From Clostridiales bacterium (GTDB lineage Bacteria > Bacillota > Clostridia > Christensenellales > Borkfalkiaceae), in contig SVHY01000006.1 in NCBI GenBank assembly GCA_015055545.1, positions 1 to 60,322 on the forward strand: a stretch of 60,322 bases of DNA, given 5' to 3'. The translations under genes and the position numbers were made by a program. Of the stretch, positions 8,642 to 23,411 are shown one piece after another (positions within the stretch are counted from its first letter, which is position 1; every line of letters begins with the position of its first letter). The notes under the pieces were generated by a model, which saw nothing but the letters and a program-made list of their open reading frames with translations, was not told the DNA's origin and made no database searches.

Positions 8642-9724
8642 TTATTCGCCTAAAATATACCGCAAATCCTCGTCCGAACACGAATATACCTTATACGGGG
8701 ACGTCAAAAGCCGCTTCGCCTCGCTTTTGATATATTCCTCGTCTATGGGTTTGGACTCGCCCACTCTACGCAAACCGTTATCCCAATAAATCTTGGTGCG
8801 GAGCTTTTCGTCCAGCTTTACTCCACGGAAAGGTTTGTCAATGTATTTGTGCTCGGTGTCCGTTTCAAAGAACTGTCTAACGAGGCGCGGACGACGCATA
8901 AACGCCGTGCGCCAGCCTTCTTCGTTGTCGTCCTGAAACGCGTAAAAATCCGTACCGTAGAAAATACGGTCTTGGTAACGCTTTATAAAATCTTTCCAGT
9001 ACGGCCAGTCTTCCAGCATTTTGAAATACTGCTCGCCGCCGGGCGTAATATCAAACGTCGTGTTTTCAAACTCGCCCAAAAACCGTTCCGCATTTTCCTT
9101 TTCGCCGATAAAGAACCCAAAATGCGCCACCGCAATTTTCAGTTTCGGGTATTTTTCCAACACGCGGAAAAGCTGCGCCGTAATCTCGTCTTTCGTCGGA
9201 TACGTTTCATCGTACACCCGTCCCGCCTGAATGAGTTCCTTACTCGCTTTGGTGATATCCCAGCTCTCTCGGGGGTTGGCGATATGTATGGTTATAGGAT
9301 AGCCGTTCTTTTCCATAAACGCGTAAAAATCGTCGTAAATCTCGTCGTCGAGCGGTATTTTACGTTCCTTTAAAAGGGACGGATAGCCTTCGAGCATTTT
9401 AATCCCGTCGAAACCAACGGAAAAATATTTTTCTACCTGCCGTAAAAAGTTCTTTTTCACCGCTTGTTTATCCGAATAATCTTGCGGGTGTTCAAGCGCG
9501 GCAAACGCGTAGAAATTCTTGCCGAATGCACGTTTTAAACACAGTATTTTTAAATTTTGTAAGCTGTCGAAATCGGTTGCTTTTGCCGATTCGTGGTGCG
9601 GAATACTTAAAAAGCAACCGCCTGCTACCCCCGCTTCCGCGAACTCCTTTTTGTAAATTTCAATTGCCTTGGGGAGTGGTATGTCCCGCAAATGATGAAT
9701 ATGTCCTTCAAATACTTTTTCCAT
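8642..9724 (-). CDS. Amidohydrolase-2-type metal-dependent hydrolase
   Basis: A 360-residue TIM-barrel hydrolase. GHIHH at the N terminus is the HxH metal motif; FDGIKMLEG has a Lys at the strand-4 position; ITIHIANP and VAHFGF supply two more His; and FYGTDFYAF gives the strand-8 Asp. AGGAG lies 8 nt before the ATG at 9724; an ATG at 9730 would be only 2 nt from it. It follows a close paralogue by about 25 nt and shares its promoter. The family hydrolyses or decarboxylates lactones and related ring compounds; with sugar genes around, a sugar-acid lactone is one possibility, but this is inference. Confidence 0.8.
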   Translation of the reverse strand: MEKVFEGHIHHLRDIPLPKAIEIYKKEFAEAGVAGGCFLSIPHHESAKATDFDSLQNLKILCLKRAFGKNFYAFAALEHPQDYSDKQAVKKNFLRQVEKYFSVGFDGIKMLEGYPSLLKERKIPLDDEIYDDFYAFMEKNGYPITIHIANPRESWDITKASKELIQAGRVYDETYPTKDEITAQLFRVLEKYPKLKIAVAHFGFFIGEKENAERFLGEFENTTFDITPGGEQYFKMLEDWPYWKDFIKRYQDRIFYGTDFYAFQDDNEEGWRTAFMRRPRLVRQFFETDTEHKYIDKPFRGVKLDEKLRTKIYWDNGLRRVGESKPIDEEYIKSEAKRLLTSPYKVYSCSDEDLRYILGE

Positions 9725-9751
9725 GTCCATGACTCCTATAATATTTGTTTG

Positions 9752-10873
9752 TTAATCGTTCAAATATTTGATAATATATCGCATATTCTCTTGATATTTT
9801 TTCAAACGTTTTTCTCGCTCTGACGGAACTATTTTATACCCGTCGTCTTTTTCGGGGAACGTTTCGTTTTCAGGAAGGTTTTTCAATAATTCTTCCGCTT
9901 TTCGTTTTAAATATTCTTCGTCAATCTTTCTCGGTTCGCCCAAAAGCGCAATCAAATTCTCGCGATAAATCCGATTTAAAATACTCTTATCCAGCTTTAC
10001 GCCTTTTATCGTCGTATCCGTTTTCGCCGCATAAACGAATTCATCGTCCGTTTCCAAAAACCGTTGCACGAAATCAGGTCGACGATGATAGCTTATTTTC
10101 CACGTTGTTGCATCATCGTCGGGGAAAGCATATTGATCCGTACCGTAAATAATTCGGTTTTGATATTTTTCAAAAAACGCCTGCCACTGAGGCCAAGACT
10201 TACGCATTTCAATAAGCTGTTCGCCCCCAGGCGTAAGGTCGAATACCGTGTTTTCGTATTGCATAAACGCTTCTGCCTGTTGAATATCATAGGACATAAA
10301 CCCAAAATGCGCAAGCGTTAATTTGAGTTTAGGGTGCTTTTGCATAATCCCGAACATTTCTTTCGTAATTTGCTCTTTGCTCGCAAACGTATCGTCGTAC
10401 GCTTCTTCCCAAAAAGGCTCGGGATTAGCAATATGCATCGTAACGGGAATCCCCTTTTCTTCTAAGAACGAGTAATACGCGTCGTACACGGGACTATCCA
10501 AGGCGATTTTTAACGCTCTACGTATGTCCGGCTGGCCTTCCAACATTTTCATTCCGTCGTAGCCTGCCGCATAATATTCCTGCGCCTGTTTTAAATACAA
10601 AGCCGAACGTTCCGCGTCGGAAATTTCATAATCGGGATGTTCCAAACCTGCGTACGCGTACGCGTTTGGGGAAAACGCTTTTTTCAAAAACAAGCCTTTT
10701 ACGTTATGCGCGGAATCAAACGTTATTTGATAATCTTGGGCGTGCGTAGGCACGCTTACGAACACCATTTTTTCCGTGTTCAAATCTTCAAATTCTTTCC
10801 TAAATATACGCACCATCTCTTCAATCGGCAACCCGAAAGAATAATGCACGTGTGCGTCAAATATTTTTTCCAT
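9752..10873 (-). CDS. Amidohydrolase-2-type metal-dependent hydrolase (paralogue)
   Basis: A 373-residue paralogue of the next gene, collinear over almost the whole length. FDAHVHYSFG holds the HxH motif, YDGMKMLEGQP the strand-4 Lys, VTMHIANPEP and LAHFGF the further His, and IYGTDQYAFPDD the Asp. A start at 10873 is preferred because GGAG precedes it by 6 nt; the longer frame to 10966 runs through the promoter. It is first in a two-gene transcript. Keeping two such enzymes together suggests either a heteromer or two related substrates. Confidence 0.8.
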   Translation of the reverse strand: MEKIFDAHVHYSFGLPIEEMVRIFRKEFEDLNTEKMVFVSVPTHAQDYQITFDSAHNVKGLFLKKAFSPNAYAYAGLEHPDYEISDAERSALYLKQAQEYYAAGYDGMKMLEGQPDIRRALKIALDSPVYDAYYSFLEEKGIPVTMHIANPEPFWEEAYDDTFASKEQITKEMFGIMQKHPKLKLTLAHFGFMSYDIQQAEAFMQYENTVFDLTPGGEQLIEMRKSWPQWQAFFEKYQNRIIYGTDQYAFPDDDATTWKISYHRRPDFVQRFLETDDEFVYAAKTDTTIKGVKLDKSILNRIYRENLIALLGEPRKIDEEYLKRKAEELLKNLPENETFPEKDDGYKIVPSEREKRLKKYQENMRYIIKYLND

Positions 10874-10901
10874 GTTTGTTCTCCTTTTTGGTATTGTATT
10901 T

Positions 10902-10930
10902 ATTATATCATAACCGATTTTTATTGTAAA
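10902..10930 (-). promoter_or_regulatory. Promoter of the amidohydrolase pair
   Basis: Minus-strand TTTACA (10925-10930) and TATAAT (10902-10907), 17 bp apart, about 28 nt before the ATG. Confidence 0.7.
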
Positions 10931-10984
10931 ATGATTATCGTACTTTATTTGCCGATTTTTTAGCATAAAATAACTTTATCGTGC

Positions 10985-11824
10985 CTATTTATCCGTTTTA
11001 GCTTTGCGATACGCCGACGGCGAAAGCCCCGTCGCGGTTTTGAAAACCTTGCAAAAATAATTGTATTCCGTATAACCGCATTCGTCGGAAATTTGCGATA
11101 CCGACTTGTTTTCAAGCAGCAATTCTTTGGCTTTTTCTATACGACAATAGCCGATATATTGCATAATTCCCATGCCAAACGCCTTCAACGAAAGCCTGTA
11201 TAAATTAGAACGCGATAGGTTGAATTGCTTGCATAATACTTCGCTTGAAAGGGGTTGTTGCAAATTATTTTTAATATACTTTTCCATTTCTGCCGCAATA
11301 TCCCCGTTTTTCCAAACGGCAAAATTTTTGATATACATATACGATGCAACCGCGTCCAAAATACGCATACCTGCGTCCATTTCCGCCGCCGTTTTAACCG
11401 TAATAGACGAAAGAGCGGCTACGCTTTTTTCTTTCAATACGCCGTATTTTTCAGCAAGTATACAAGCCCGCTGCGTTACAGCGTTATAATCTTCCGCAGG
11501 CAGCATATGCGCCAAAACCGCATACCCTAAAATACTCCCTCCCATTTGTATAGGCGTAATCGCTTCCGTTAAGCCCGCGTGGCAGGTGTAAATATGCGGC
11601 GCGCGCAGTTTCATTGCACGCATACACGCCGCTTCGTCACAGCGCCTACAACCTTCTTCTCCCCGCTTTGTACTTCTAATCAAAGCGCAATATTTAGGCG
11701 CGCTTTTGGGATATTCGCTTACCAAGCGAAACGCGTTATCGAAAATCGCGATACGAATTTTTACAATCGCATAAAAATCTTGCAACAACCTATCCAAATT
11801 TTGCACATCGAAAACACTGTTCAT
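10985..11824 (-). CDS. PocR-domain AraC-family regulator
   Basis: A 279-residue protein. Residues 1-170 match the PocR ligand-sensor pattern: conserved cysteines in YCALIRS, GCRRCDEAAC and YTCHAGLTEAITPI, then GGSILGYAVLAHM. Residues 180-279 are the AraC DNA-binding domain, ending DECGYTEYNYFCKVFK and TATGLSPSAYRKA. The ATG at 11824 is chosen because the coding similarity begins there and the promoter TATAAT ends 6 nt upstream. It diverges from xylAB and is probably their regulator, although PocR domains are better known from propanediol and hydrocarbon sensing. Conserved Cys residues may bind a metal or cofactor. Confidence 0.85.
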   Translation of the reverse strand: MNSVFDVQNLDRLLQDFYAIVKIRIAIFDNAFRLVSEYPKSAPKYCALIRSTKRGEEGCRRCDEAACMRAMKLRAPHIYTCHAGLTEAITPIQMGGSILGYAVLAHMLPAEDYNAVTQRACILAEKYGVLKEKSVAALSSITVKTAAEMDAGMRILDAVASYMYIKNFAVWKNGDIAAEMEKYIKNNLQQPLSSEVLCKQFNLSRSNLYRLSLKAFGMGIMQYIGYCRIEKAKELLLENKSVSQISDECGYTEYNYFCKVFKTATGLSPSAYRKAKTDK

Positions 11825-11830
11825 AATTTT

Positions 11831-11859
11831 ATTATAGCATATAAGTCTCGTCTTGTCTA
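11831..11859 (-). promoter_or_regulatory. Promoter of the PocR-AraC gene, leaderless geometry
   Basis: Minus-strand TAGACA (11854-11859) and TATAAT (11831-11836), 17-bp spacing. Six nt separate the -10 box from the ATG at 11824, so transcription would start at or next to the A of the start codon. No Shine-Dalgarno sequence. Confidence 0.6.
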
Positions 11860-11882
11860 CAATTTTAAACCAAAATGAAACA

Positions 11883-11896
11883 AAAATATATATTTT
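11883..11896. promoter_or_regulatory. AT-rich palindrome in the xylA/PocR divergent region
   Basis: AAAATATATATTTT is a perfect 14-bp palindrome midway between the two start codons, upstream of the xylA TATAAT (11935-11940). It could be an operator or only AT-rich promoter DNA. Confidence 0.3.
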
Positions 11897-11965
11897 GGGA
11901 ACGATTTGCACTATCTTTGCGCTAAAAATTATTATATAATGGTTACAAAAAAAAGGAGTAAATCT

Positions 11966-13288
11966 ATGAACGAATTTTTTAAAACCATTTCAAAAATCCC
12001 TTACGAGGGCGCAAAAAGCAAAAATCCCCTTGCCTTTCATTACTATGATGCAAACAGAGTGATTATGGGCAAGCCGATGAAAGAACACCTGCCCTTTGCC
12101 ATGGCTTGGTGGCATAATCTTTGCGCAAGCGGCGCAGATATGTTTGGACGCGGTACGGCGGATAAGGCGTTTGGCGTGGCAGAACTCAACACAATGGAAC
12201 ATGCAAAAGCAAAAGTAGACGTCGGGTTTGAATTTATGCAAAAGCTGGGCATTGAATATTTTTGTTTCCACGACGTAGATATCGTGCCCGAAGCGGACGA
12301 CATTAAAGAAACCAACCGCCGTTTAGACGAAATTTCCGATTATATTCTGGAAAAGATGAAAAAGACGGGTATCAAATGCCTTTGGGGCACGGCGAACATG
12401 TTCAGCAACCCCCGTTTTTGCAACGGTGCGGGTTCGTCGAATAGCGCGGAAGTGTTTGCTTTTGCGGCTGCGCAAGTGAAAAAGGCAATCGATATCACCT
12501 TAAAACTCGGTGGCAAAGCCTATCTATTTTGGGGTGGCAGAGAAGGTTATGAAACGCTTTTAAACACCGACGTTAAATTTGAGCAAGACAATATCGCACG
12601 GCTTATGAAAATGGCGGTGAAATACGCGCGGAGTATAGGTTTTACGGGCGATTTCTATATCGAACCCAAACCGAAAGAACCTATGAAACATCAATACGAT
12701 TTCGACGCGGCTACGGCAATCGGGTTCTTGCGTCAATACGGCTTGGATAAAGATTTCAAATTGAACATCGAAGCCAACCACGCAACGCTTGCAGGACATA
12801 CTTTTGAACACGATTTGCGCATTTCCGCTATCCACGGTATGCTCGGTTCTATCGATGCAAATCAAGGCGATTTGTTGCTTGGCTGGGACACGGACGAATT
12901 CCCGTCCAACGTCTACACAGCCACCGCTTGCATGTACGAAGTATTAAAAGCAGGCGGTTTGACAGGCGGGTTCAATTTCGACGCCAAAAACCGCCGTCCG
13001 TCCTATACGGCGGAAGATATGTTTGCGGGATATATTTTGGGTATGGATACTTTCGCGCTTGGACTTATCAAAGCGGCAGAGCTTATCCAAGACGGCAGGA
13101 TAGACGATTTTATCTCGAAACGCTACGCAAGTTACCGCGAAACGGAAATCGGCAGGAAAATCATCGCCGACGAAACGGACTTGGAAGAGTTGTTTGCTTA
13201 CGCGGAAAACGTCGGCACGCCTAATTTACCGGGGAGCGGTAAGCAGGAATACTTACAAAGCGTTTTAAACGACGTGTTATTCGGTTAA
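11966..13288 (+). CDS. xylA: Xylose isomerase
   Basis: A 440-residue class II xylose isomerase, the standard length. It converts D-xylose to D-xylulose in the cytoplasm with two divalent metals. Visible hallmarks: FHDVDIVPE (catalytic His and Asp), [31 protein letters not shown] (metal Glu and Lys), [17 protein letters not shown] and [13 protein letters not shown] (metal Asp residues). The start at 11966 follows AAAAGGAG by 7 nt and a TATAAT at 11935-11940; upstream in-frame codons lie in the promoter. xylB follows after 4 nt. No xylose transporter is in the window. Confidence 0.98.
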
Positions 13289-13292
13289 AAAA

Positions 13293-14750
13293 ATGAATAC
13301 GTATATCGGAATCGATTTAGGCACTTCGTCCGTAAAATTGTTGCTTGTAACCGCTGACGGAACGATTGTAAAAAGTGCCGTGAAAGACTACCCTATTTAT
13401 TATCCGCAAAGCGGTTGGAGCGAGCAAAACCCCGAAGACTGGTTAAACGCTACCTTGCAGGGCATGAACGAATTGTTGCAAGGACAAGACCGCTCAGCCG
13501 TCAAAGGCGTGTCCTTTGGCGGGCAAATGCACGGGCTGGTGGTTTTGGATAAAAACGACGCCGTCATTCGCCCCGCAATTTTATGGAACGACGGAAGAAC
13601 GGAAACGCAAACGCAATATCTCAACACCGTTATGGGCAAAAAGGCGTTGTCTAACTACACGGCAAATATCGCTTTCGCGGGCTTTACCGCACCTAAAATC
13701 CTTTGGGTTCGCGAAAACGAGCCTGAAAATTTTGCAAAAATCGATAAAATGATGTTACCCAAAGATTATCTTGCTTATAAGCTTACGGGCGTACTTTCCA
13801 CCGATTATTCGGACGCAAGCGGCACGCTGTTATTAGACGTAAAAAACAAGCGTTGGTCGAAAGAACTGTGCGATTTTTGCGGCGTAGAAACGCGGTGGTT
13901 GCCAACGCTTTTTGAAAGCTATCAACCTATCGGAAAAATACGTGCGCAGTACGGCTTACCCAACGCCGTCGCAGTGGCAGGCGCGGGCGATAACGCCGCG
14001 GCGGCAATCGGCACGGGAACGATTGAAAACGGGGCTTGCAATATTTCACTTGGCACGAGTGGCACGGTTTTTATCGCGCAAGACGAGTTTTCGGTGGACG
14101 AACACAACGCCTTGCACTCGTTTGCGCACGCAAACGGAAAACACCATTTAATGGGCTGCATTTTATCCGCCGCAAGTTGTAATAAATGGTGGTTGGAAGA
14201 TATCCTGCAAACGAACGACTATTCCGCCGAACAAGACGGTTTGGACGAATTGCTCGGGAAAAACGAAGTATTCTTTCTCCCCTATCTCATGGGTGAACGC
14301 AGTCCGCATAACGACGTAAACGCCAAAGGCTGTTTTATCGGTCTGCGCCCTGATACGACCAGAAAACAAATGACGCTTGCCGTGATGGAAGGCGTAGCGT
14401 TTGCCTTGCGCGACTGTATGGAAGTGGCGAAAAAAAGCGGATTGCAGATTGACAAGGCAAAAATTTGTGGTGGCGGCGCGAAAAGCCGTATTTGGAAAAA
14501 AATCGTAGCCAACGTCTTTGGTATTCCCATTTCCACTCCCGTCACGGAAGAAGGTCCCGCTTACGGCGCGGCAATTTTGGCTATGGTTGGAGCGAACGAG
14601 CACGCAAGCGTATACGACGCGGCGAAACGGTGCGTCAAAGAAAAAGACACCGTATACACCGACGCCGTGCTAACGGAGCGATACGAACGGAAATACCGTT
14701 ATTTCCAACGCTTATATCCCGCCGTTAAGGCAATATTTAGCGATAAATAA
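13293..14750 (+). CDS. xylB: Xylulokinase
   Basis: A 485-residue FGGY-family kinase that phosphorylates D-xylulose to xylulose 5-phosphate for the pentose phosphate pathway. IGIDLGTSSVKLLL is the phosphate-1 loop, GGQMHGLVV and WNDGRTETQ match the xylulokinase substrate region, and GGGAKSRIWKKI is the adenosine motif near the C terminus. Its start lies 4 nt after the xylA stop, with no clear ribosome site of its own, so translation is probably coupled to xylA. A strong hairpin terminator follows. Confidence 0.97.
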   Translation: MNTYIGIDLGTSSVKLLLVTADGTIVKSAVKDYPIYYPQSGWSEQNPEDWLNATLQGMNELLQGQDRSAVKGVSFGGQMHGLVVLDKNDAVIRPAILWNDGRTETQTQYLNTVMGKKALSNYTANIAFAGFTAPKILWVRENEPENFAKIDKMMLPKDYLAYKLTGVLSTDYSDASGTLLLDVKNKRWSKELCDFCGVETRWLPTLFESYQPIGKIRAQYGLPNAVAVAGAGDNAAAAIGTGTIENGACNISLGTSGTVFIAQDEFSVDEHNALHSFAHANGKHHLMGCILSAASCNKWWLEDILQTNDYSAEQDGLDELLGKNEVFFLPYLMGERSPHNDVNAKGCFIGLRPDTTRKQMTLAVMEGVAFALRDCMEVAKKSGLQIDKAKICGGGAKSRIWKKIVANVFGIPISTPVTEEGPAYGAAILAMVGANEHASVYDAAKRCVKEKDTVYTDAVLTERYERKYRYFQRLYPAVKAIFSDK

Positions 14751-14763
14751 CTTCGTTAAAGAC

Positions 14764-14807
14764 AAAAACAGTATCAGGCACGCCTGATACTGTTTTTTCG
14801 TTTTTTT
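14764..14807. terminator. Intrinsic terminator after xylB
   Basis: A-run plus CAGTATCAGGC (to 14779) pairs with GCCTGATACTG and a T-run (14782-14798); a second T-run follows to 14807. The A and T tracts on both sides allow use by the convergent dehydrogenase gene as well. Confidence 0.85.
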
Positions 14808-14810
14808 AAA

Positions 14811-16076
14811 TTATTGCATGGTTCTGTAATCGAGAACTTCCCAATCTGCGGGAGGATCGCCCAAATCGGGTACGTCCAAAAGGACACCGCCTTGCATAGC
14901 GGATTGGTGCGCAACGAGCCCGGGCAAGTTGTATCTTGCAACCGCCCAAATGTTCGTAGGCGACAGCTTACCCGTTTCAAACGCACGGCAGAAATCGTCG
15001 ATAAGGAAGTGGTGCGTACCGTTGTGTTTGTTGGGGATACCTTCAAATTCCTTTCTCGGCAATCTTTCCGTCGGCTGAATAGGCGATTCTTCGCTGAATC
15101 CACCGCTGTCCGCGATTTTTTGAATAGCTTCGTCGTAGTCCGTCTTCATCAAGTTATAGATGGATTCGGGTTGCAACTGCTTGGATACGTCCTTCATGAT
15201 AACCTTACCAGGTCTTGCGGGATCCCAAACGGCTTGGTGATGGTGCGCAACCGAGAATTCGTAGCCGCCTTCCGAGCCGTAGAATTGCGTGATATACGTT
15301 TCGGGCGACATCCAGCCAACGCAACGGTTTTCGCTTACTCTTGCCACACCGCCGTTGGAAAGTTGCATAAGCATCGTTTCGCAAGCAAACGGGTTGTGGT
15401 AGTTGTTTTGACCGTCTCTACCGTAGATGTCCGTTCTGGGGCTTTCCGCATACCCTACTGCGGAAACTTTCTTTACGTATACGCCAGGCAACGCGCTCAA
15501 AATCATAGACGTAGAGTGCGTAGGATAGAAGAAAGGCGGAACGCCTGCAAAGCGTTTCCAATCTTCCCCGCCCGAGCTTCTGAAACTACCTTCCATGTTG
15601 CGGATATCGTGGTTGTATTGCGCTTCTGCATACACGAACTTACCGAAAGTACCCTTTTTAAATTCTTCACGGCAGTAAATAGCAGGCGCGCGATAGAACC
15701 CCGTTTCGCCCATGGAATAGGTCAAACGCGTTTCTCTTACGAGCTTTTCAATTTCAATAATTTCGTCCACGGAAACCGCGCAAGGCACAGCCGAATATAC
15801 GTGCTTGCCAGCTTTCAGTGCGGCAATAACCATCGGGCCGTGTTTTTCACGGGGCGTGAAGATGGCAACGGCGTTGATGTTTTTATCTTCAAGCGCTTTT
15901 TCAAAGCTTTCGTAGCCTTCTACGCCGTAACGTTCCATATAATCGCGTTCACGGTCTTTTTTCAAATCGCAAACGTATACTTTTTCGGTAACGGGGTGAT
16001 TTTTAAACAAGGAAACAAAGTTTCCAGCAAATCTTCCGCAACCGATCATGACGATTCTCAATTTTTCGTTATTCAT
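14811..16076 (-). CDS. Gfo/Idh/MocA-family oxidoreductase
   Basis: A 421-residue protein, last gene of the Fe-S operon. RIVMIGCGRFAGNFV is the nucleotide-binding start. The usual EKP is replaced by SAVPCAVS at about residue 95, so the family Lys is missing. PPFFYPTHSTSMILS is the characteristic substrate-domain stretch of a glycoside/sugar-oxidising subgroup. AGGAG precedes the ATG at 16076 by about 9 nt and the gene overlaps its upstream neighbour by 8 nt. Loss of the EKP lysine suggests an altered reaction. Being coupled to three Fe-S proteins, it may deliver or accept electrons through NAD(P) (inference). Confidence 0.85.
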   Translation of the reverse strand: MNNEKLRIVMIGCGRFAGNFVSLFKNHPVTEKVYVCDLKKDRERDYMERYGVEGYESFEKALEDKNINAVAIFTPREKHGPMVIAALKAGKHVYSAVPCAVSVDEIIEIEKLVRETRLTYSMGETGFYRAPAIYCREEFKKGTFGKFVYAEAQYNHDIRNMEGSFRSSGGEDWKRFAGVPPFFYPTHSTSMILSALPGVYVKKVSAVGYAESPRTDIYGRDGQNNYHNPFACETMLMQLSNGGVARVSENRCVGWMSPETYITQFYGSEGGYEFSVAHHHQAVWDPARPGKVIMKDVSKQLQPESIYNLMKTDYDEAIQKIADSGGFSEESPIQPTERLPRKEFEGIPNKHNGTHHFLIDDFCRAFETGKLSPTNIWAVARYNLPGLVAHQSAMQGGVLLDVPDLGDPPADWEVLDYRTMQ

Positions 16077-17046
16077 TGTCTTTATTCTCCTTTCCATAAT
16101 TTTCAAATTGTTCGGTTGATAATTTCCAGTCTTGCTTTTCGCGGAACGGGCGATTGAACTTCTTGGTCAACAATCCCTTTTCTTCCAAGTGAATATAGCA
16201 AGCTCTATCGCACGCTCTACCGCAAATAGAAGTACGGTAGAAATGCTTTGCAGGCGGGTAGAAGAAGATATTATCCAAGATATTCTTCGCTTCTTCATCG
16301 TCAAATTCCGCCGTGCCGTTGATGATATCCATCTTCTTTTTATGATCGAAATTCGCAAACGCTTCGGGGGGCATAAATGGGTTCTTGCTTCCGTTAGCAC
16401 CGTTATAGTACACCGCGCAACGCCAGCTGTTCGTCTTGCCGTTTTCGTCGATTGCTCGTCCAGGGCAAGCCTTGATACATTCGCCACAGTTGTCGCAAAG
16501 CGACGGTTTGAGCATAGGCGTTTCTTCAATTTCCATATCCGTTAAGATAAAGCAATAGCGGATAAACGGACCGTATTCGGGGGTAAGCAAACTCCCGATC
16601 ATGCTCTTTTCACCAAGCCCGCATTTTACTGCGCAATCCAAAAAGTCAATCTGATTTTCTGCTTTTACGCCGTGGTATACGTCGGTATAGTCCACTTCGG
16701 GGTTGGTCGTGCCCTCTTCGTTCAAAATAAGCGGGCTACGGCGTTGAGGAACGGCGATAAAGCCTTCGCTTTCCACCAAGTTCGCCACGCGAAGAAGTGC
16801 CATAGGCATAACCGTTTCTTCCAAGTTCTCCACACCCATCGTCGTATATTGATAGTACGTAGTCCCTTCTTCCACGCCACGGAAAATACCGCGCAAGATT
16901 CTAAATCCCATGCCGATAACCGTTTTCACGTTGGGGAAAATACGGAAGATGGCGTCGTCTTTATCAAAGCGGCTTGCAGGCGCAAAGCCTACGATATCCG
17001 CATCACATTTTTTTGCTAAATCAATAATTTGCTGTCTTATACTCAT
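16069..17046 (-). CDS. QueG-like double-cluster 4Fe-4S protein A
   Basis: A 325-residue protein. The N-terminal half (CDADIVGFAPASRF; VKTVIGMGFRI) resembles the cobalamin-binding half of epoxyqueuosine reductase/reductive dehalogenases. CDNCGECIKACPG (about residue 195) is a C-x2-C-x2-C-x3-CP cluster motif, SWRCAVYY supplies the extra Cys seen in QueG, and CGRACDRAC near 275 would complete the second cluster. The ATG at 17046 overlaps the preceding stop by 4 nt. It is one of three paralogues in this operon. QueG itself normally acts on tRNA and is single-copy; triplication beside a sugar dehydrogenase points to a different substrate. Confidence 0.75.
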   Translation of the reverse strand: MSIRQQIIDLAKKCDADIVGFAPASRFDKDDAIFRIFPNVKTVIGMGFRILRGIFRGVEEGTTYYQYTTMGVENLEETVMPMALLRVANLVESEGFIAVPQRRSPLILNEEGTTNPEVDYTDVYHGVKAENQIDFLDCAVKCGLGEKSMIGSLLTPEYGPFIRYCFILTDMEIEETPMLKPSLCDNCGECIKACPGRAIDENGKTNSWRCAVYYNGANGSKNPFMPPEAFANFDHKKKMDIINGTAEFDDEEAKNILDNIFFYPPAKHFYRTSICGRACDRACYIHLEEKGLLTKKFNRPFREKQDWKLSTEQFENYGKENKDNE

Positions 17047-17948
17047 ATCTTTCCCTGCTCCTTCAAATGTTGATAACATACCGTTTCACACGATTTGCCG
17101 CACAAGCACGCCAAGTAACCAAAGTGCGTTTTCGGCAAGAAATTCAATTCGTTATAAATCGCTTCCGCACTCTCTTTATCAAACCGTTTTTCGCCGTTTA
17201 TAATCGCTTCGCGTTCGGGGTGGTCTTTCAAAAAATCTTCGCCCATGAACGGGTTGGATTTGTGCGCGCCGCGATAATATACGCTGCATTGCCAGCTATC
17301 CACGCCCTTTTGAGAAATCGCTTTCCCGGGGCAAGCGGACAAGCATTTGCCGCACTTATCGCAAAGTTCGTCCTTGAACGGTTCGTCGCAGTCGAGCGGC
17401 ATATCCGTTATAATGAACACCCAACGCATAAACGAGCCGTATTTGGGTGCAATCACTCTACCGTGCAAACCGACGCTACCCAAGCCGCATACCACCGCTG
17501 CTTTGTTGTAATCGATAATGACGTCGGGTACGGGTTTTCCCTCCGCTACGGGGGAAGCAAATTGCAGTTCGTAAATACGCGTAACTTCGGGGTTGGTGCT
17601 CTTATCGCCCTTTACCTTAAAGCCGGGTACGTATCGTTGCAAGCACGCGTCGTAGCCTGCGTCTTCAATCATTGCGCCCATTTTCAAAAGGAAAATTTCC
17701 GCAAAGCTTTCGTCCGTATATTTTACGCCAAGGTTGGTGTAATTGAAATATTGTCTTTGTTCGCTCATCGCCATATACAAGCCTTTGGGGACGGGCAAAC
17801 CGAACCCGATTACACATTTTGCGTTAGGCAAAATGGATAAGGGATTATGTTGCGGGTCGTCGCCGATAAAATATTTGATATCGCCGATACCGCAAACGCC
17901 CGCGCCAAGTTCTTTGGCTTTTTCTTTAATCATCGTAGCCGTTATCAT
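17043..17948 (-). CDS. QueG-like double-cluster 4Fe-4S protein B
   Basis: A 301-residue paralogue of proteins A and C. GAGVCGIGDIKYF and AKCVIGFGLPVPKG mark the N-terminal domain. CDKCGKCLSACPG is the first cluster motif, SWQCSVYYRGA carries the bridging Cys, and CGKSCETVCYQH the second cluster. It starts 3 nt after the cupin gene stop and ends inside the start of protein A. It lacks the C-terminal tail of protein A. The conserved YFNYTNLG and QYTTMG-type Tyr-rich segments of the family are present, possibly at the active site. Function unknown; an electron-transfer or cobalamin-dependent reductase role is inferred from the fold. Confidence 0.75.
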   Translation of the reverse strand: MITATMIKEKAKELGAGVCGIGDIKYFIGDDPQHNPLSILPNAKCVIGFGLPVPKGLYMAMSEQRQYFNYTNLGVKYTDESFAEIFLLKMGAMIEDAGYDACLQRYVPGFKVKGDKSTNPEVTRIYELQFASPVAEGKPVPDVIIDYNKAAVVCGLGSVGLHGRVIAPKYGSFMRWVFIITDMPLDCDEPFKDELCDKCGKCLSACPGKAISQKGVDSWQCSVYYRGAHKSNPFMGEDFLKDHPEREAIINGEKRFDKESAEAIYNELNFLPKTHFGYLACLCGKSCETVCYQHLKEQGKI

Positions 17949-17951
17949 GTT

Positions 17952-18314
17952 TTACGCTCCTTTCGTATTCAACTTCTTCATTTCCGTATTCGCGCCCGTC
18001 GTGTCGCTGTTTTCCACGACGACAATCAGCGCGTCTTCGCTCACTTGCAAGTGATGCCAAGTACCTTTTTGTACGTTATACAATTTTTCCGGTTGCATTT
18101 CCGTTTTTACAAGCGGTTCGTCGCCGTCCGCCGTGAACAGCGTTGCGCTACCTTTTACCAAAACAAACACTTCGTCCGTTTGCATATGGCGTTTTAACAC
18201 TTTTAATTCGCCGTACTGCTCACCGCAGGTAATAAACGCAACTTTCCAACTCTCAAACGTATGCACCGTGTCAAATCCGTTCCCGTTTCTCGGGTTCTCC
18301 TTGACCTGTATCAT
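17952..18314 (-). CDS. Small cupin-domain protein
   Basis: A 120-residue single-domain cupin. VLKRHMQTDEVFVLVKG with H and E matches cupin motif 1, and YNVQKGTWHHLQVSEDA matches motif 2 with its His. The ATG at 18314 overlaps the stop of protein C by 4 nt (ATGA), preferred over an in-frame ATG at 18329. Cupins of this size isomerise or epimerise sugars, bind metals or act as sensors. Position in the middle of the Fe-S operon suggests it handles the same metabolite. Confidence 0.8.
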   Translation of the reverse strand: MIQVKENPRNGNGFDTVHTFESWKVAFITCGEQYGELKVLKRHMQTDEVFVLVKGSATLFTADGDEPLVKTEMQPEKLYNVQKGTWHHLQVSEDALIVVVENSDTTGANTEMKKLNTKGA

Positions 18315-19393
18315 CTGTCCATCTTCCAAGCCTTCATTTCGCGGCGGAGCGGGTTTTCAAATCTGCCTTCCATGCAACCGCCTTTCTTTTCGAGCATACT
18401 TACGCAAGCACGGATACAGCCGCCGCATTTCGCCATGTTATAACCCACCCAGCTCGGGAAGTATTTTTCAAGCGCGGTATACACTTTCATAACTTCCTTT
18501 TCGTTGGCAACGTCCGTCACGCCTTCGAGCAAGTCGAGCATACCGTTTTCGTTTTTATCAAACACTTCCTTGGGTACGAACGGGTTGAAATATCTGCCGC
18601 CGTGCGTATAGAACGCGTAGCAACGCCACATATCGATATCACCCCATTCGCATTTCTTGCCCGCCAAATCTACCGTTACCGTCTTACCCGACTTAATAGC
18701 AGGAATACAGCCACCGGGGCACTCGCGTACGCACGCGCCGCATTTTCTACAAAGGGGCTTGCCCGAATACATTTCGTCGTATTCAAGTTCCGCATCCGTG
18801 AAAATGAACGCTACACGTTGCAAAGGTCCGAATTCAGGCGTCAAGAGCATTTTGCTCCAACCAATTTCACCAAGTCCGCAAGCAACTGCCGCCAAACGGA
18901 ATTGGAACTGCAAATCGGGCGGTTGTTTGCCCTCTTCTGCGGGACGGGTAAACTGAACGCTTCTATGGTGCGCAGTCTTGCCTTTCGCGTGTTTACTCAC
19001 TTCGATTTGTTCTTCGGGCGAAAGGGTATTACCGGGCGTACCGTCCATATCCGACACCGCGCCACGCGCACCCGTGTTACGGTATACGAACGCTTCGTAG
19101 CCCGCGTCTTCGATAACCTTACCCACGTGGTGTAAAACCGCGGGAGCGTGGATTTCGTTGATACCGCCGTACGCCATCGACGGGTACTGATAAAACTGCG
19201 TACCCTCTTCGATACCGCGTTGTACGCCACGGGGGATTCTGAACGCCATTGCGATACAGCTCTTTGCCTGCGGGAACAGGAACTGCGGGTTCATTACGTC
19301 GGGCGCACCGTCAAAACGGGACATAGGCCCGATTCCGCACAAATCCGCACCTGCTTCAAACGCCGCTTCTTTAATCATTTTGCTGGTAAGCAT
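18311..19393 (-). CDS. QueG-like double-cluster 4Fe-4S protein C
   Basis: A 360-residue paralogue, the longest of the three. GADLCGIGPMSRF and KSCIAMAFRIPRGV mark the N-terminal domain, with FYQYPSMAYGG as the Tyr-rich stretch. CRKCGACVRECPGGC contains the first cluster and one additional Cys; MWRCYAFY holds the bridging Cys; and CGGCIRAC is the second cluster. Compared with B it has an insertion of about 40 residues near 105-145 (GARGAVSDMDGTPGN and following). It overlaps the end of the U32-like gene by 23 nt, so translation is coupled. Confidence 0.75.
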   Translation of the reverse strand: MLTSKMIKEAAFEAGADLCGIGPMSRFDGAPDVMNPQFLFPQAKSCIAMAFRIPRGVQRGIEEGTQFYQYPSMAYGGINEIHAPAVLHHVGKVIEDAGYEAFVYRNTGARGAVSDMDGTPGNTLSPEEQIEVSKHAKGKTAHHRSVQFTRPAEEGKQPPDLQFQFRLAAVACGLGEIGWSKMLLTPEFGPLQRVAFIFTDAELEYDEMYSGKPLCRKCGACVRECPGGCIPAIKSGKTVTVDLAGKKCEWGDIDMWRCYAFYTHGGRYFNPFVPKEVFDKNENGMLDLLEGVTDVANEKEVMKVYTALEKYFPSWVGYNMAKCGGCIRACVSMLEKKGGCMEGRFENPLRREMKAWKMDR

Positions 19394-20384
19394 AATTCTC
19401 CTCCAATTTTACGAACGCGTTATTCTCGTTCGTATATATTAGTTTTCCATTTTTAATTTCTCTTTTGATTTTGCCGTTTTCCAAAACGTAGGGATAAATC
19501 GTCCCCGCGTGGTTAGGCTCTAACAAACTCGCCGTGTTTCCGACGAACTTTTTCCGCTGGATATACGCGCGCAAAACTCTCGACGGGTTTTCGTGTACAC
19601 GCGTTGCAAGTTTCATGGCGGGCACTATATCTTCGTATAAATCCGTATCCTCGGGACGGATATAATTCGTCGCCGACAACAACCCCTCGCGGTTATTTTC
19701 TTTGGATAAATACGCTCTGCACACCCCGCCGAATTGATAACCGTTATCCATTTGCGACGCGCCTTCTTCGTGCGCCACTAAATTATCGTGGAACGTATGC
19801 GCGGAACAATCGTTTAAACAACCGCTGTTGGCAAGGATATACATTTGCTTGCCGTTCTTATCGCACCATTCTCTAAGCGTCTTTAACGCGTTGAAATCGC
19901 GATTCAACTCCCGTTTGACGTAAAAGCTGTCGAACACGTCTGCAATATACTCCATTCCAAGCACGCTTCCCACACCCATATTCACGGACGCGCGCACGTC
20001 TATTTCAGGAAAGTTTTGTTTTAAGAACTTGGCAATGAGCGGCGAGGTCGTCGTCACGGACGCAAGCGAGAAATTACCGCCTACGTATTCCACCGTTTCG
20101 CCCACCGACTCAAAAAAGGAACGCGATTGCGCTTTGTCGCCGTAGCAGTTGGCGTTGAAAAGCAAGTTAAACTTTAAGCCCTCTTTATGCAACGCTTTCA
20201 AATCCTCTATTTGCTTGGCTTGCGCCTCCCAAGGCGTTAAATTTTCGCTCCGCGTTTGGTCGTTTCTGCCACTCGGCGTTTTACCCCAAGAGAAATACAC
20301 TTCCGATACGCCGTCTTTTAAAGCAACGATTTCGTCCACCAAACGGTTATCCGCCTTTACGCCGTAACCAACCGAAAACAGCAT
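19371..20384 (-). CDS. U32-peptidase-like protein, first gene of the Fe-S operon
   Basis: A 337-residue protein starting LFSVGYGVKADNRLVDEIV. The barrel-like N-terminal part, ASVNMGVGSV and YILANSGCLNDCSAHTFHDN resemble the U32 family, whose Cys residues bind an Fe-S cluster in some members; here NSGCLNDC and GGVCRAYL give three candidates. U32 relatives without peptidase activity (UbiU/V, RlhA, TrhP) do O2-independent hydroxylation of small molecules or RNA. Together with three QueG-like proteins this makes an anaerobic redox cluster likely. AGGGAAT precedes the ATG. The divergent AraC gene at 20526 is the probable regulator. Confidence 0.6.
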   Translation of the reverse strand: MLFSVGYGVKADNRLVDEIVALKDGVSEVYFSWGKTPSGRNDQTRSENLTPWEAQAKQIEDLKALHKEGLKFNLLFNANCYGDKAQSRSFFESVGETVEYVGGNFSLASVTTTSPLIAKFLKQNFPEIDVRASVNMGVGSVLGMEYIADVFDSFYVKRELNRDFNALKTLREWCDKNGKQMYILANSGCLNDCSAHTFHDNLVAHEEGASQMDNGYQFGGVCRAYLSKENNREGLLSATNYIRPEDTDLYEDIVPAMKLATRVHENPSRVLRAYIQRKKFVGNTASLLEPNHAGTIYPYVLENGKIKREIKNGKLIYTNENNAFVKLEENYAYQQND

Positions 20385-20486
20385 ATTCCCTTTCGCTCCT
20401 TTGACCTTTTACACTATTTTATAATATTTTTAAATTCTTTCATATTACTTAACAAACAAAAAAACATAACAAAACAAACATTTTGC

Positions 20487-20516
20487 TTGACAAAGGTTTT
20501 TTGGATATGGTATACT
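20487..20516 (+). promoter_or_regulatory. Promoter of the AraC gene at 20526, near-leaderless geometry
   Basis: Consensus TTGACA (20487-20492) and TATACT (20511-20516), 18 bp apart. Only 9 nt lie between the -10 box and the ATG, and no Shine-Dalgarno is present. The TTG of the -35 box is in frame with the gene and can be mistaken for a start codon. Confidence 0.7.
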
Positions 20517-20525
20517 GAAAACGTT

Positions 20526-21377
20526 ATGAAGATAGAATGTTTAAACCCGTTTATACGGCACTCCAAACTGTACACGACCCATTATCCGCAAAAGGAAAAC
20601 CACGTTTGCTACGATTGTCGCTTGTTCTACGTAGCGCAAGGCGACGCAGAATTATACGCCAACGGGCAGTCGTATACGGTAGCGAACAATACGTGTATTT
20701 TCTTGCCGCCCAAATCTCGGTATCGCTTTACGTTCTCCAACCCCGACAACGTAAAAATATATATTCTCAATTTCGATCTAACGGACGAATTTCATCATTT
20801 ATCCCATTCTTTGGGCACGGCGACGGAAAGCACCTTTCAACCCGAAAAGCTGCTCGTTTACGACCTGCCGCAAGAATTTACGCACGCGATTGTGGAAAAC
20901 AACTGTTTACCCGTTTTCGACCGCGTAGCAAGCTGTATCGATTTGTTTTTGTATAAAGAACCCTATTATAAACACTCTGCGTCTGCACAGTTAAAGCTCG
21001 CGCTCATTACGCTTTTAAAAGAATTTAAAAACGAGCGTTCTGATTATAAGCTCGTACAAAGCGTACAGGAATTTATCCGTAGCCATTACGACGACGCGGA
21101 ATTGAGCAATCAAACGATTGCCGATCAATTTGGCTATCACCCCTATCATATCAACCGCCTGTTTAAAGCGCAAACGAAAAAGACTTTACACGATTATCTC
21201 ATCGATTATAGGCTGCACATGGCGAAAAACTATTTGGCAACGACGACGCTGAACGTAACCATGGTATCGGAAAAAACGGGCTTTTCGTCGTATACGTATT
21301 TCATTAAGCTATTTAGGGAGCGCACGGGCATATCCCCGTTACAGTACAGAAAAACGCATAAAAACATCGGCTTTTAA
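20526..21377 (+). CDS. AraC-family transcriptional regulator
   Basis: A 283-residue regulator with an N-terminal cupin-like sensor (YVAQGDAELYANGQSY; IFLPPKSRYRF) and a C-terminal AraC domain from about residue 180 (TIADQFGYHPYHINRLFKA; TGFSSYTYFIKLFRERTG). The start at 20526 fits the promoter only 9 nt upstream. It faces the Fe-S operon (start 20384) across 141 bp and is the likely activator of it. A strong terminator follows. Confidence 0.9.
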   Translation: MKIECLNPFIRHSKLYTTHYPQKENHVCYDCRLFYVAQGDAELYANGQSYTVANNTCIFLPPKSRYRFTFSNPDNVKIYILNFDLTDEFHHLSHSLGTATESTFQPEKLLVYDLPQEFTHAIVENNCLPVFDRVASCIDLFLYKEPYYKHSASAQLKLALITLLKEFKNERSDYKLVQSVQEFIRSHYDDAELSNQTIADQFGYHPYHINRLFKAQTKKTLHDYLIDYRLHMAKNYLATTTLNVTMVSEKTGFSSYTYFIKLFRERTGISPLQYRKTHKNIGF

Positions 21378-21380
21378 AAA

Positions 21381-21416
21381 CGGTTGCAATCCTAACGATT
21401 GCAACCGCTCTTTTTA
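21381..21416 (+). terminator. Intrinsic terminator after the AraC gene
   Basis: CGGTTGCAATC (21381-21391) pairs with GATTGCAACCG (21397-21407), 5-nt loop, followed by a T-run. Confidence 0.85.
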
Positions 21417-23411
21417 TTCTTCTTCTATCTCGATAATGGAAACGCCGCGCGGACTTACCTTTTCATAAAACATATTTCCTCTAACCGTAACGTTATGATT
21501 GCGGGATTTATTCAACACCGTTACACGCTTTAACGCAAACGGCATTTTTACCTCCGCGTTATTATACGAATGTGCGGGATTTATCAGCAATCCGCGATAA
21601 CGCTTTTCTCCTATCTTCCAAACGTTTATCGTACAATCGCTCCGCCGCCCCACCGATAACGGCAATCCGAACGCTCCGTTCAAAATACGCGCAAGCGTTT
21701 TAAAGAACGTTTTCGACAACGTGCGATACGCAAGCGGACACGTCCACAACCCGTCAAACGGCAAGTACGGCGTTTGTTTACACGCTTTCGGCGCGTCGTA
21801 TCTTTTTAAAACGTCAAACGCGCGCGTATCCACTTTGATATTCTTTACCCATACGGAAATATACTTGCCTTGATATACGCGCGTTGCGCCTTGCACCGTG
21901 TTTTCCGTACCGATAATCGCCATAGGTAAACGGGTATTTGCAAGGCTTTGCAATTCCGCTTCCGTCAGCGTATCGGGGTTCATAACCAAAAGCGGCGCGG
22001 CAACCCGTTCTACGTGTTCCGTACGCACCGCCCCACCAAGACAAAGTCCCGAGGCAAACAGCTCGTAGGATAACTGCGAACGGCTGTAATCGTGCGTTTG
22101 CAAATACCGTTTTGTTTCCGCTCGTATATCGTCCCCCCAAACGCGTAAAAATCCCAACGGCGTTTGAACGGTTTCTATCCCCGAAACGTTTTCTATACCG
22201 TTTAATTTGTTCCATTGCTCTGCGCTAATACCGCTGGATAGACAATACCACGGTCCTTGCGACGCGTTTTCGTAACGCTCGCCCGTGAATACGAAGTTAT
22301 GATTGCGCGAGACGAACACGCTTTCCTGTTCCGTCGGTGCAACGTCCATCAAATTCCATTGTTCAAACGTGTCTTTAATCGCCGACAGCGTGTATTGCGG
22401 AACGCTTGGCATATACGCCTTAATACTCTGTTGCATGAGCGCAAACTGATACAGATAATCAGGCTTTTTATCAGGCGGCAAGTACACCCCGCCGTTATCG
22501 CCAATACAATGGAGATTTGCAGCAGCCGCCCATTCCACCATAATCGCGTTCGCCTTATACATGGTCGTCTTGTAATCGATTCCGTAGCGCAAATACGCCT
22601 CAAACGGATCACGCGTCCAAACGGAATTAAAATACAGCTCCGTTTTCTCCGTTTCAAACGCCTTATACAGGCAATCGTAAAATTTCGCCCAACGCTCACT
22701 ATTCCATTGTACCCACGTAGAATACAAATTTTCGATAATATATTTACGGCGGCGTTGATACGCTTTTTTGCTTTCGCCCACGGGCGCAAGATTGCTATCG
22801 TTTATCTTCGTATCCGCAACGAATTGAGAAACGAGCTCGTCGCCCATATCCCCTCTTTGTAGAGCAGGGCGATAACTGGATAACCCGTCGGCAATCTGTA
22901 CGCCGTCAAAACCGTAATACGCCAACACTTCTTTCAGTTTCCGAACGAATACGTCTTGAAAATATTCCCCGCTACGCAACCGTTTCAACGGGCAAACGGT
23001 ACTACTTGTATCGCCGTTTTTATTCAAATATAACAATTCCCTATGCGCTTGAATAAACCCGCTTTCCACCCGTTTTCCATCGTCCGTACGATAGGAAAAG
23101 AAATCGAACAAGCTAAACGCGACCTTTACGCCGTTTTTATGTAATTCCCTAACAAGTGCGCGCAGTTGTACGTTCGTCCAAACCTGCCTATCCCGCTCGT
23201 CGCCGTGCAAATATCCACCATAGCTACAATGGCAGGGCAACAGTTCCGTTTCTCCGTCCGCGTTTTGATAATCTACGACGAACTCCAAATTCGCAAACAG
23301 CAACGATACGCCGTCTACCTTCGCTTGGGTGCGTTCTAAAAACGCTTTCACGCCGTAATCCGCTTGCGTATTATCAAATCCGATCAGTTCTATCCAATAC
23401 CACTTTTGCAT
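21414..23411 (-). CDS. Unclassified TIM-barrel glycoside hydrolase-like protein
   Basis: A 665-residue protein without a signal peptide. The N-terminal half has the rhythm of a GH barrel: KVDGVSLLFANLEF, HKNGVKVAFSLFDFF, YYGFDGVQIADGLSS, ELYFNSVWTRDP and NAIMVEWAAAANLH. D in FDGVQIAD and E in MVEWAA are candidate catalytic residues (inference). The C-terminal part (about 450-665) looks like a Rossmann-type/beta-sandwich arrangement as in GH42-like enzymes, ending in a compact beta domain. I cannot place it in a named family. It has its own promoter (23441-23470) and a terminator separates it from the surface-protein genes upstream. Confidence 0.6.
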   Translation of the reverse strand: MQKWYWIELIGFDNTQADYGVKAFLERTQAKVDGVSLLFANLEFVVDYQNADGETELLPCHCSYGGYLHGDERDRQVWTNVQLRALVRELHKNGVKVAFSLFDFFSYRTDDGKRVESGFIQAHRELLYLNKNGDTSSTVCPLKRLRSGEYFQDVFVRKLKEVLAYYGFDGVQIADGLSSYRPALQRGDMGDELVSQFVADTKINDSNLAPVGESKKAYQRRRKYIIENLYSTWVQWNSERWAKFYDCLYKAFETEKTELYFNSVWTRDPFEAYLRYGIDYKTTMYKANAIMVEWAAAANLHCIGDNGGVYLPPDKKPDYLYQFALMQQSIKAYMPSVPQYTLSAIKDTFEQWNLMDVAPTEQESVFVSRNHNFVFTGERYENASQGPWYCLSSGISAEQWNKLNGIENVSGIETVQTPLGFLRVWGDDIRAETKRYLQTHDYSRSQLSYELFASGLCLGGAVRTEHVERVAAPLLVMNPDTLTEAELQSLANTRLPMAIIGTENTVQGATRVYQGKYISVWVKNIKVDTRAFDVLKRYDAPKACKQTPYLPFDGLWTCPLAYRTLSKTFFKTLARILNGAFGLPLSVGRRSDCTINVWKIGEKRYRGLLINPAHSYNNAEVKMPFALKRVTVLNKSRNHNVTVRGNMFYEKVSPRGVSIIEIEEE

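Follow-up and report, generated by a model that had tools for sequence, protein, structure and literature searches.

A six-gene operon on the minus strand of a 60,322-nucleotide stretch of DNA (positions 1 to 60,322 of contig SVHY01000006.1 from a Clostridiales bacterium), here called the window, encodes a protein with a predicted U32-type TIM barrel, three paralogous QueG-like iron-sulfur (Fe-S) proteins designated QG1, QG2 and QG3, a small cupin and a Gfo/Idh/MocA-type protein. The operon, with its gene order kept, recurs in many bacteria from plant-eating animals. The reading proposed here, to which a probability somewhat below even is assigned, is that it encodes an O2-independent redox module linked to an AraC-family regulator, with the U32-like protein and the three QGs as a fixed core that would act by the mechanism set out below. 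The more specific reading, tentative and on balance rather unlikely, is that of a new cobamide-dependent system in which QG1, as the conserved catalytic subunit of the class III type, would work with its paralogues QG2 and QG3 and with a U32-type Fe-S enzyme in the O2-independent reductive cleavage of a carbohydrate-derived substrate in herbivore-gut bacteria.

The operon extends from position 20384 to 14811. The gene for the U32-like protein (19371-20384, 337 residues) comes first, followed by the genes for QG1 (18311-19393, 360 residues), the cupin (17952-18314, 120 residues), QG2 (17043-17948, 301 residues), QG3 (16069-17046, 325 residues from the ATG at 17046, with an alternative in-frame start at 17079) and the Gfo-type protein (14811-16076). 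The successive junctions are overlaps of 23 and 4 nucleotides, a gap of 3 nucleotides, and overlaps of 4 and 8 nucleotides. Re-reading the window thus returned the six genes, the order, the overlaps and the gap given in a preliminary description of this DNA, as well as the AraC gene that it had linked to the operon. The latter lies divergently at 20526-21377 on the plus strand, encodes HTH_18 and AraC_binding domains, the second being a cupin-type N-terminal domain, and is separated from the U32-like gene by a shared regulatory region (20385-20525). The AraC translation used here begins at 20529, with the codon next to the ATG.

The search for the same gene set in other genomes used the U32-like protein as the marker. 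A pattern scan of one genome per species, covering 84,980 species, gave 304 confirmed relatives, and the loci analysed were the best 80 of these, a sample biased towards similarity. The order U32-QG1-QG2-QG3 was found in 64 of the 67 loci whose sequence continues for 3.2 kb or more beyond the U32 gene, which places the operon well above chance. In one exception (L044), QG1-3 were located beyond the AraC gene, on its other side, and in the other two (L056 and L087) the QG1-2-3 run was elsewhere in the genome. When QG1 was searched for in six genomes, it was found at 63% identity or more in five, while the best match in the sixth, whose contig (L049) ends 274 bases past the U32 gene, was 43% identical. 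A divergent AraC match occurred within 1.5 kb upstream of the U32 gene in 60 of the 75 loci with room for it. The cupin gene followed in 28 of the 67 loci and the Gfo-type gene in 22, so the six-gene unit of the preliminary description is present in the window, but the fixed unit consists of four genes and the cupin and Gfo-type genes are optional. Among more distant relatives outside the 80 loci, the U32 gene was accompanied by one QG in L129 and L131 and by two in L130.

A herbivore was named in 50 of the 80 record titles: goats account for 18, roe deer for 11, sheep for 8, water deer for 7 and water buffalo for 4, with one title each for rabbit and cattle. The remaining 30 were 24 of the SIG and RUG series, with no animal named, two Victivallales and four others. 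Besides the window's own genome, a draw of 398 genomes from the phylum yielded a strong member in one (431 bits) and weak matches, of at most 85 bits, in 13, and 200 genomes of the order included three with a strong, near-full-length relative and one with a weak match. The distribution of the module is patchy. A second version, with a QG1 about 62-66% identical to that of the window, was seen in L044, L046, L145, L146 and L142. Two adjacent QG relatives without a neighbouring U32 gene were also observed (L132:3411-5383), in a genome that has a U32-QG pair elsewhere.

All three QGs have the motif C-x2-C-x2-C-x3-C-P, then W-x-C, then a cysteine triplet, C-x2-C-x3-C in QG1 and C-x3-C-x3-C in QG2 and QG3, which is the pattern previously described for them and amounts to eight cysteines, as in QG2. 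After length filters, which kept 68 of 73 QG1, 66 of 66 QG2, 64 of 64 QG3, 80 of 80 U32, 23 of 23 Gfo-type and 29 of 29 cupin sequences, and addition of the window row, the cysteine columns were conserved in 68-69 of 69 QG1 rows, 66-67 of 67 QG2 rows and all 65 QG3 rows. Folds were predicted for QG1 and the U32-like protein. The predicted QG1 fold consists of a nitroreductase-type domain and a ferredoxin domain with two predicted [4Fe-4S] sites, the arrangement of the QueG/RdhA superfamily of class III cobalamin proteins, a family described as comprising reductive dehalogenases and epoxyqueuosine reductases (PMC7585037). Of the structural check that had been suggested for the three Fe-S proteins, this prediction covers the fold of QG1. 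No Pfam or NCBIfam model over its cut-off assigned the window QGs a function beyond a general Fe-S domain. The strongest rival explanation, although distinctly unlikely, is that the QGs are electron-transfer or flavin-dependent, nitroreductase-type reductases without a cobamide and that the U32-like protein is the main catalyst. The best matches of QG1 were all cobalamin proteins, QueG and RdhA followed by CblC/CblD, with flavin enzymes far below, and the stretch GLG...PEFGP...TD ahead of the first cysteine set matches QueG and RdhA in sequence; both observations argue against a flavin enzyme and for the class III assignment.

The QGs are separate from QueG itself. The NCBIfam QueG equivalog (cut-off 200 bits) scored 28.0, 49.4 and 34.9 bits for QG1, QG2 and QG3, all below the cut-off. 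The DYH motif, described as catalytic in QueG (PMC4646009), was absent from all QG rows (0 of 69, 0 of 67 and 0 of 65; 0 of 201 in total) and present in 12 of 12 QueGs from other genomes. The C-terminal HEAT-repeat domain was also absent, the aligned QG rows stopping soon after the second cysteine set where QueG runs about 100 residues further. The QGs thus differ from the QueG structures (5d6s, 5d08) in both respects and in being three co-encoded paralogues of a separate clade. The phylogeny against true QueG, a tree of 72 proteins including 12 QueGs, resolved five groups, QG1, QG2, QG3, QueG and the QGs of loci with one or two QGs, each separated from the rest at 96% support or more, and the QGs of the one- or two-QG loci joined QG1 (86/99). 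From this separation it follows that the triplication is old and that all three QGs were retained. Two loci, L070 (Victivallales) and L078, grouped with G123, which belongs to the window's own order, within QG1 (100/95), QG2 (98/91) and QG3 (100/98) alike, which suggests that the set was transferred as a block. Measured on one common collection of 65 gene sets, the window's and those of 64 loci, the median pairwise identity was 0.84 for QG1, 0.645 for QG2, 0.62 for QG3 and 0.53 for the U32-like protein, so that QG1 is by far the most conserved of the four core proteins.

A role in queuosine synthesis was rejected. In the source genome, at 83% completeness, no protein exceeded the QueG family cut-off, as would be expected if one of the QGs were the true QueG, but the genome encodes QueA (432 bits) and QueH (223 bits), both over their cut-offs. 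QueH replaces QueG at the epoxyqueuosine step, so the three QGs are not needed for queuosine; the missing DYH motif and C-terminal repeat region agree with this. The earlier contrast with a normally single-copy QueG may hold for the genuine enzyme, but it is weakened by the frequency of further relatives: in 41 genomes of the phylum, the source genome included, the QueG model was matched in 34, exceeded its cut-off in 20 and had at least two matches in 23, some of these multiple matches being pieces of one gene. Short proteins below the QueG cut-off were common in these genomes beside or instead of QueG. A short QueG-like protein of the source genome (L134:6186-6860) sits at the end of a long branch in the QueG part of the tree.

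The homology of the QGs to QueG and the U32 fold of the first gene product raise the alternative that the four proteins make a new modified nucleoside. Both families have members that act on RNA, QueG on tRNA and U32 proteins on tRNA and rRNA, among them RlhA, which acts on 23S rRNA (PMC6747719). Against such an RNA-modifying pathway, which has a slim chance of being correct, stand the presence of QueH for queuosine, the absence of the QueG repeat region from the aligned QG rows, the poor fit of the AraC gene and the sugar-gene neighbors, and the patchy distribution. RNA modification is usually lineage-wide.

Membership of the window QGs in RdhA was likewise rejected because the NCBIfam reductive dehalogenase model (cut-off 160.35 bits) gave 38.5, 53.5 and 42.9 bits for QG1, QG2 and QG3. 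Further alignments (A3-A6) were chosen subsets of 46, 49, 28 and 29 rows; in A3, composed of QG1, four QG relatives of other kinds and some QG2 and QG3, all 46 rows matched both the dehalogenase and QueG models at E≤0.001 (best 5.3e-17 and 2e-16), a comparison by E-value only. In contrast to RdhA (PceA, 4uqu; 8q4h), the three QGs have no twin arginine within their first 40 residues, and inspection of the six operon genes by eye revealed no dehalogenase anchor-like gene.

The first gene product has the predicted TIM-barrel fold of the U32 proteins and four cysteines (C80, C189, C193 and C222) that are invariant in 81 of 81 rows with the spacing C-x108-C-x3-C-x28-C. The fold is common to peptidase family U32 (Mk0906, 5d88; UbiU, UbiV, RlhA, YegQ), but the spacing differs from those reported, CX6CX15CX3/4C, CX6CX16CX38C in UbiU and CXnCX12CX3C in UbiV (PMC6747719). 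The window protein had no Pfam match at E≤0.01, PF01136 included, and no NCBIfam match, and a profile of the family retrieved nothing meaningful from the PDB sequences. Its relatives matched PF01136 at E≤1 in 9 of 49 cases (best 0.0028). The case for U32 is therefore made by the predicted fold, by profile matches connecting the protein with U32 proteins of other genomes and by these weak Pfam matches. A molecular function has been established for very few U32 members, according to PMC6747719. A C-terminal C-x3-C-x2-C-x2-C cluster, kept by 36 of the 81 rows, is lacking in the window protein (19371-19470).

The optional genes bear on the substrate. The cupin gave weak Cupin_2 and WbuC matches below their cut-offs, and 97% or more of 30 rows share its His43, Glu48 and His87. 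The EKP lysine, which is catalytic in Gfo/Idh/MocA dehydrogenases, was absent in 24 of 24 Gfo-type rows, as the preliminary description had noted for the window, and replaced by S[AS]VP. The glycoside hydrolase family 109 (GH109) enzyme 2ixa, an NAD-dependent alpha-N-acetylgalactosaminidase, also lacks this lysine and reads EVS. Its block Y179-Q-H181-D-L-R, in which Y179 and H181 are presumably active-site residues, aligned with Y-N-H-D-I-R; Y, H and D were found in 24 of 24 rows and N, I and R in at least 90%. (Translation of 14811-16079 shifts the residue numbers up by one relative to a start at the ATG of 16076.) The GH109 C-terminal domain (PF21252) was matched at E≤1 by 23 of 24 rows (best 0.0029), but the window protein, with 14.7 bits, fell below the cut-off of 27, and over the Rossmann domain DgpA scored slightly higher than 2ixa (58.6 versus 51.9 bits). 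Judged by these sequence features, the protein is GH109-like and not GH109 proper. The missing lysine and the YxHD block thus replace the earlier reading of an odd sugar-type dehydrogenase. C-glycoside oxidation like that of DgpA, the top PDB sequence match, was set aside; DgpA keeps the EKP motif and lacks the YxHD block.

Other loci have different genes of this kind. DUF5696 proteins, related to GH101, occurred in 14 of the 80 loci, none of them with a Gfo-type gene of at least 60% identity. The Gfo-type gene was counted in 21 of the 80, a gene set that left out L051, and no locus had both. This mutual exclusion carries no weight as a test, given that the loci share ancestry and that each of the two genes is confined to its own clades; a Fisher value over the 54 loci with room ignores this relatedness. 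Other neighbors were a family, F22, with weak GH88/GH127 matches (4 of 80 loci), GH43 in L080, an aldose epimerase and an ATP-binding cassette importer in L055, an acetyl xylan esterase in L056, and GH65 with a HAD hydrolase in one run with the U32 gene in L087. In L147, a glucosamine-6-phosphate isomerase family protein, an APH-type kinase and an amidohydrolase adjoin QG1-3, a trio that may be NagB, NahK and NagA, the Pfam matches being broader. Hexosamine glycans are a possible theme because GH101 and GH109 both include enzymes that release alpha-GalNAc (PMC11992087), and an N-acetylhexosamine-containing glycan as substrate is a weakly supported guess. The same neighbors bear on the alternative that the module builds a deoxygenated or hydroxylated specialized metabolite and degrades nothing. 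The accessory genes do differ between loci, and a radical SAM/SPASM gene follows QG3 in L044 and L146, as biosynthesis might require. However, hydrolases and sugar genes recur among the annotated neighbors, which are a selection, and no typical biosynthetic gene set was seen among them, no systematic search for one having been made; biosynthesis is accordingly regarded as improbable.

In the proposed redox mechanism, an electron donor would reduce the two [4Fe-4S] clusters of QG1, from which electrons would reach a base-off cobamide housed in the nitroreductase-type domain. A small substrate would then be cleaved reductively at a C-O bond or a similar one, by analogy with epoxide opening by QueG and halide removal by RdhA. 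QG2 and QG3 would be lasting partners that either provide further catalytic sites for the following steps or carry electrons. The U32-like protein may be a further Fe-S enzyme whose own step on this substrate immediately precedes or follows that of QG1, or it may present the substrate to QG1. The AraC regulator would sense a sugar. The substrate is most likely carbohydrate-derived, to judge from the encoded proteins, since the cupin and the GH109-like protein, or the glycosidase-like DUF5696 protein in other lineages, would release or prepare it. The cofactor is probably available, since 36 of 40 carrier genomes, and likewise the source genome, encode a further B12-binding domain. The anaerobic redox pathway suggested in the preliminary description is thus consistent with the predicted QueG/RdhA fold of QG1 and the predicted U32 fold. 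The genes with their order and co-occurrence, these two predicted folds, the cysteine sets, the distinctness from QueG and the neighboring genes are observations, from which the binding of cobamide and clusters, the regulation, the reaction and the substrate are inferences.

A cobamide might instead be what the QGs process, if they reduce or dealkylate incoming corrinoids like CblC and do not use a cobamide as cofactor. CblC is described as lacking a ferredoxin domain (PMC4646009). Three further points argue against corrinoid handling, which is given a very slight chance: the U32 partner, the AraC gene, and the lack of Rfam matches above the gathering score anywhere in the window, on which ground a cobalamin riboswitch was rejected.

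Several observations weigh against the cobamide-dependent redox module, 1) the catalytic DYH of QueG is missing, and equivalents of its Tyr and Asp could not be placed with certainty, 2) the QG1 loop 121-149 was modelled at a predicted local distance difference test (pLDDT) score below 50, 3) the presence of the cobamide and clusters in the QGs is inferred, and no calculation shows either, 4) four of the 40 carrier genomes have no B12-binding domain, possibly through incomplete assembly, and the count itself is a weak test, B12 use being common in general, 5) the trio is not essential in every version, as the single QG of L129 and L131 demonstrates, and 6) several loci (L067, for example) are surrounded by housekeeping-type genes and have no evident sugar gene in the vicinity, and since such loci exist and gut Clostridia are rich in glycosidases, the sugar link stands without a background rate.

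The DNA around the operon contains further candidate features. The AraC gene has a strong candidate sigma-70-like site (TTGACA-18-TATACT, 20487-20516, plus strand), and a weak one lies on the minus strand (20443-20416); both are consensus matches only. A 15-pair stem-loop that carries a plus-strand T-run (14764-14797) is a probable terminator between the end of the operon and a convergent sugar kinase gene. The genes converging on the operon end (11906-14750, plus strand) encode a xylose isomerase-like TIM-barrel protein and an FGGY sugar kinase, probably xylA (xylose isomerase) and xylB (xylulokinase). Two similar-looking tandem genes (8642-10966, minus strand), the first of which (8642-9730) matches Amidohydro_2, adjoin a gene for a PocR-like AraC regulator (10985-11911). 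On the other side, a gene at 21414-23411 (minus strand) encodes a 665-residue protein for which a hypothetical glycosyl hydrolase family gave no more than a trace match; two relatives, 26-27% identical, lie near the same U32-QG module in L037.

Each protein of the operon belongs to a known superfamily, but no description of the combination was found in the open-access literature, subscription journals being mostly outside the scope of the search. That literature yielded no description of an operon combining QueG-like or RdhA-like proteins with a U32 protein, nothing on RdhA with a U32 peptidase, on RdhA in the rumen or on DUF5696, and no characterized homologous operon, in line with the earlier statement that the operon matches no known system. 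An operon this widespread, in which three class III-type proteins are linked with a U32-type enzyme, would offer both families a new reaction to be found. The setting is the gut of farmed and wild herbivores, and the four-gene unit is small enough to be expressed as a whole. If the more specific reading is true, class III B12 chemistry would extend beyond dehalogenation and tRNA modification to sugar catabolism.

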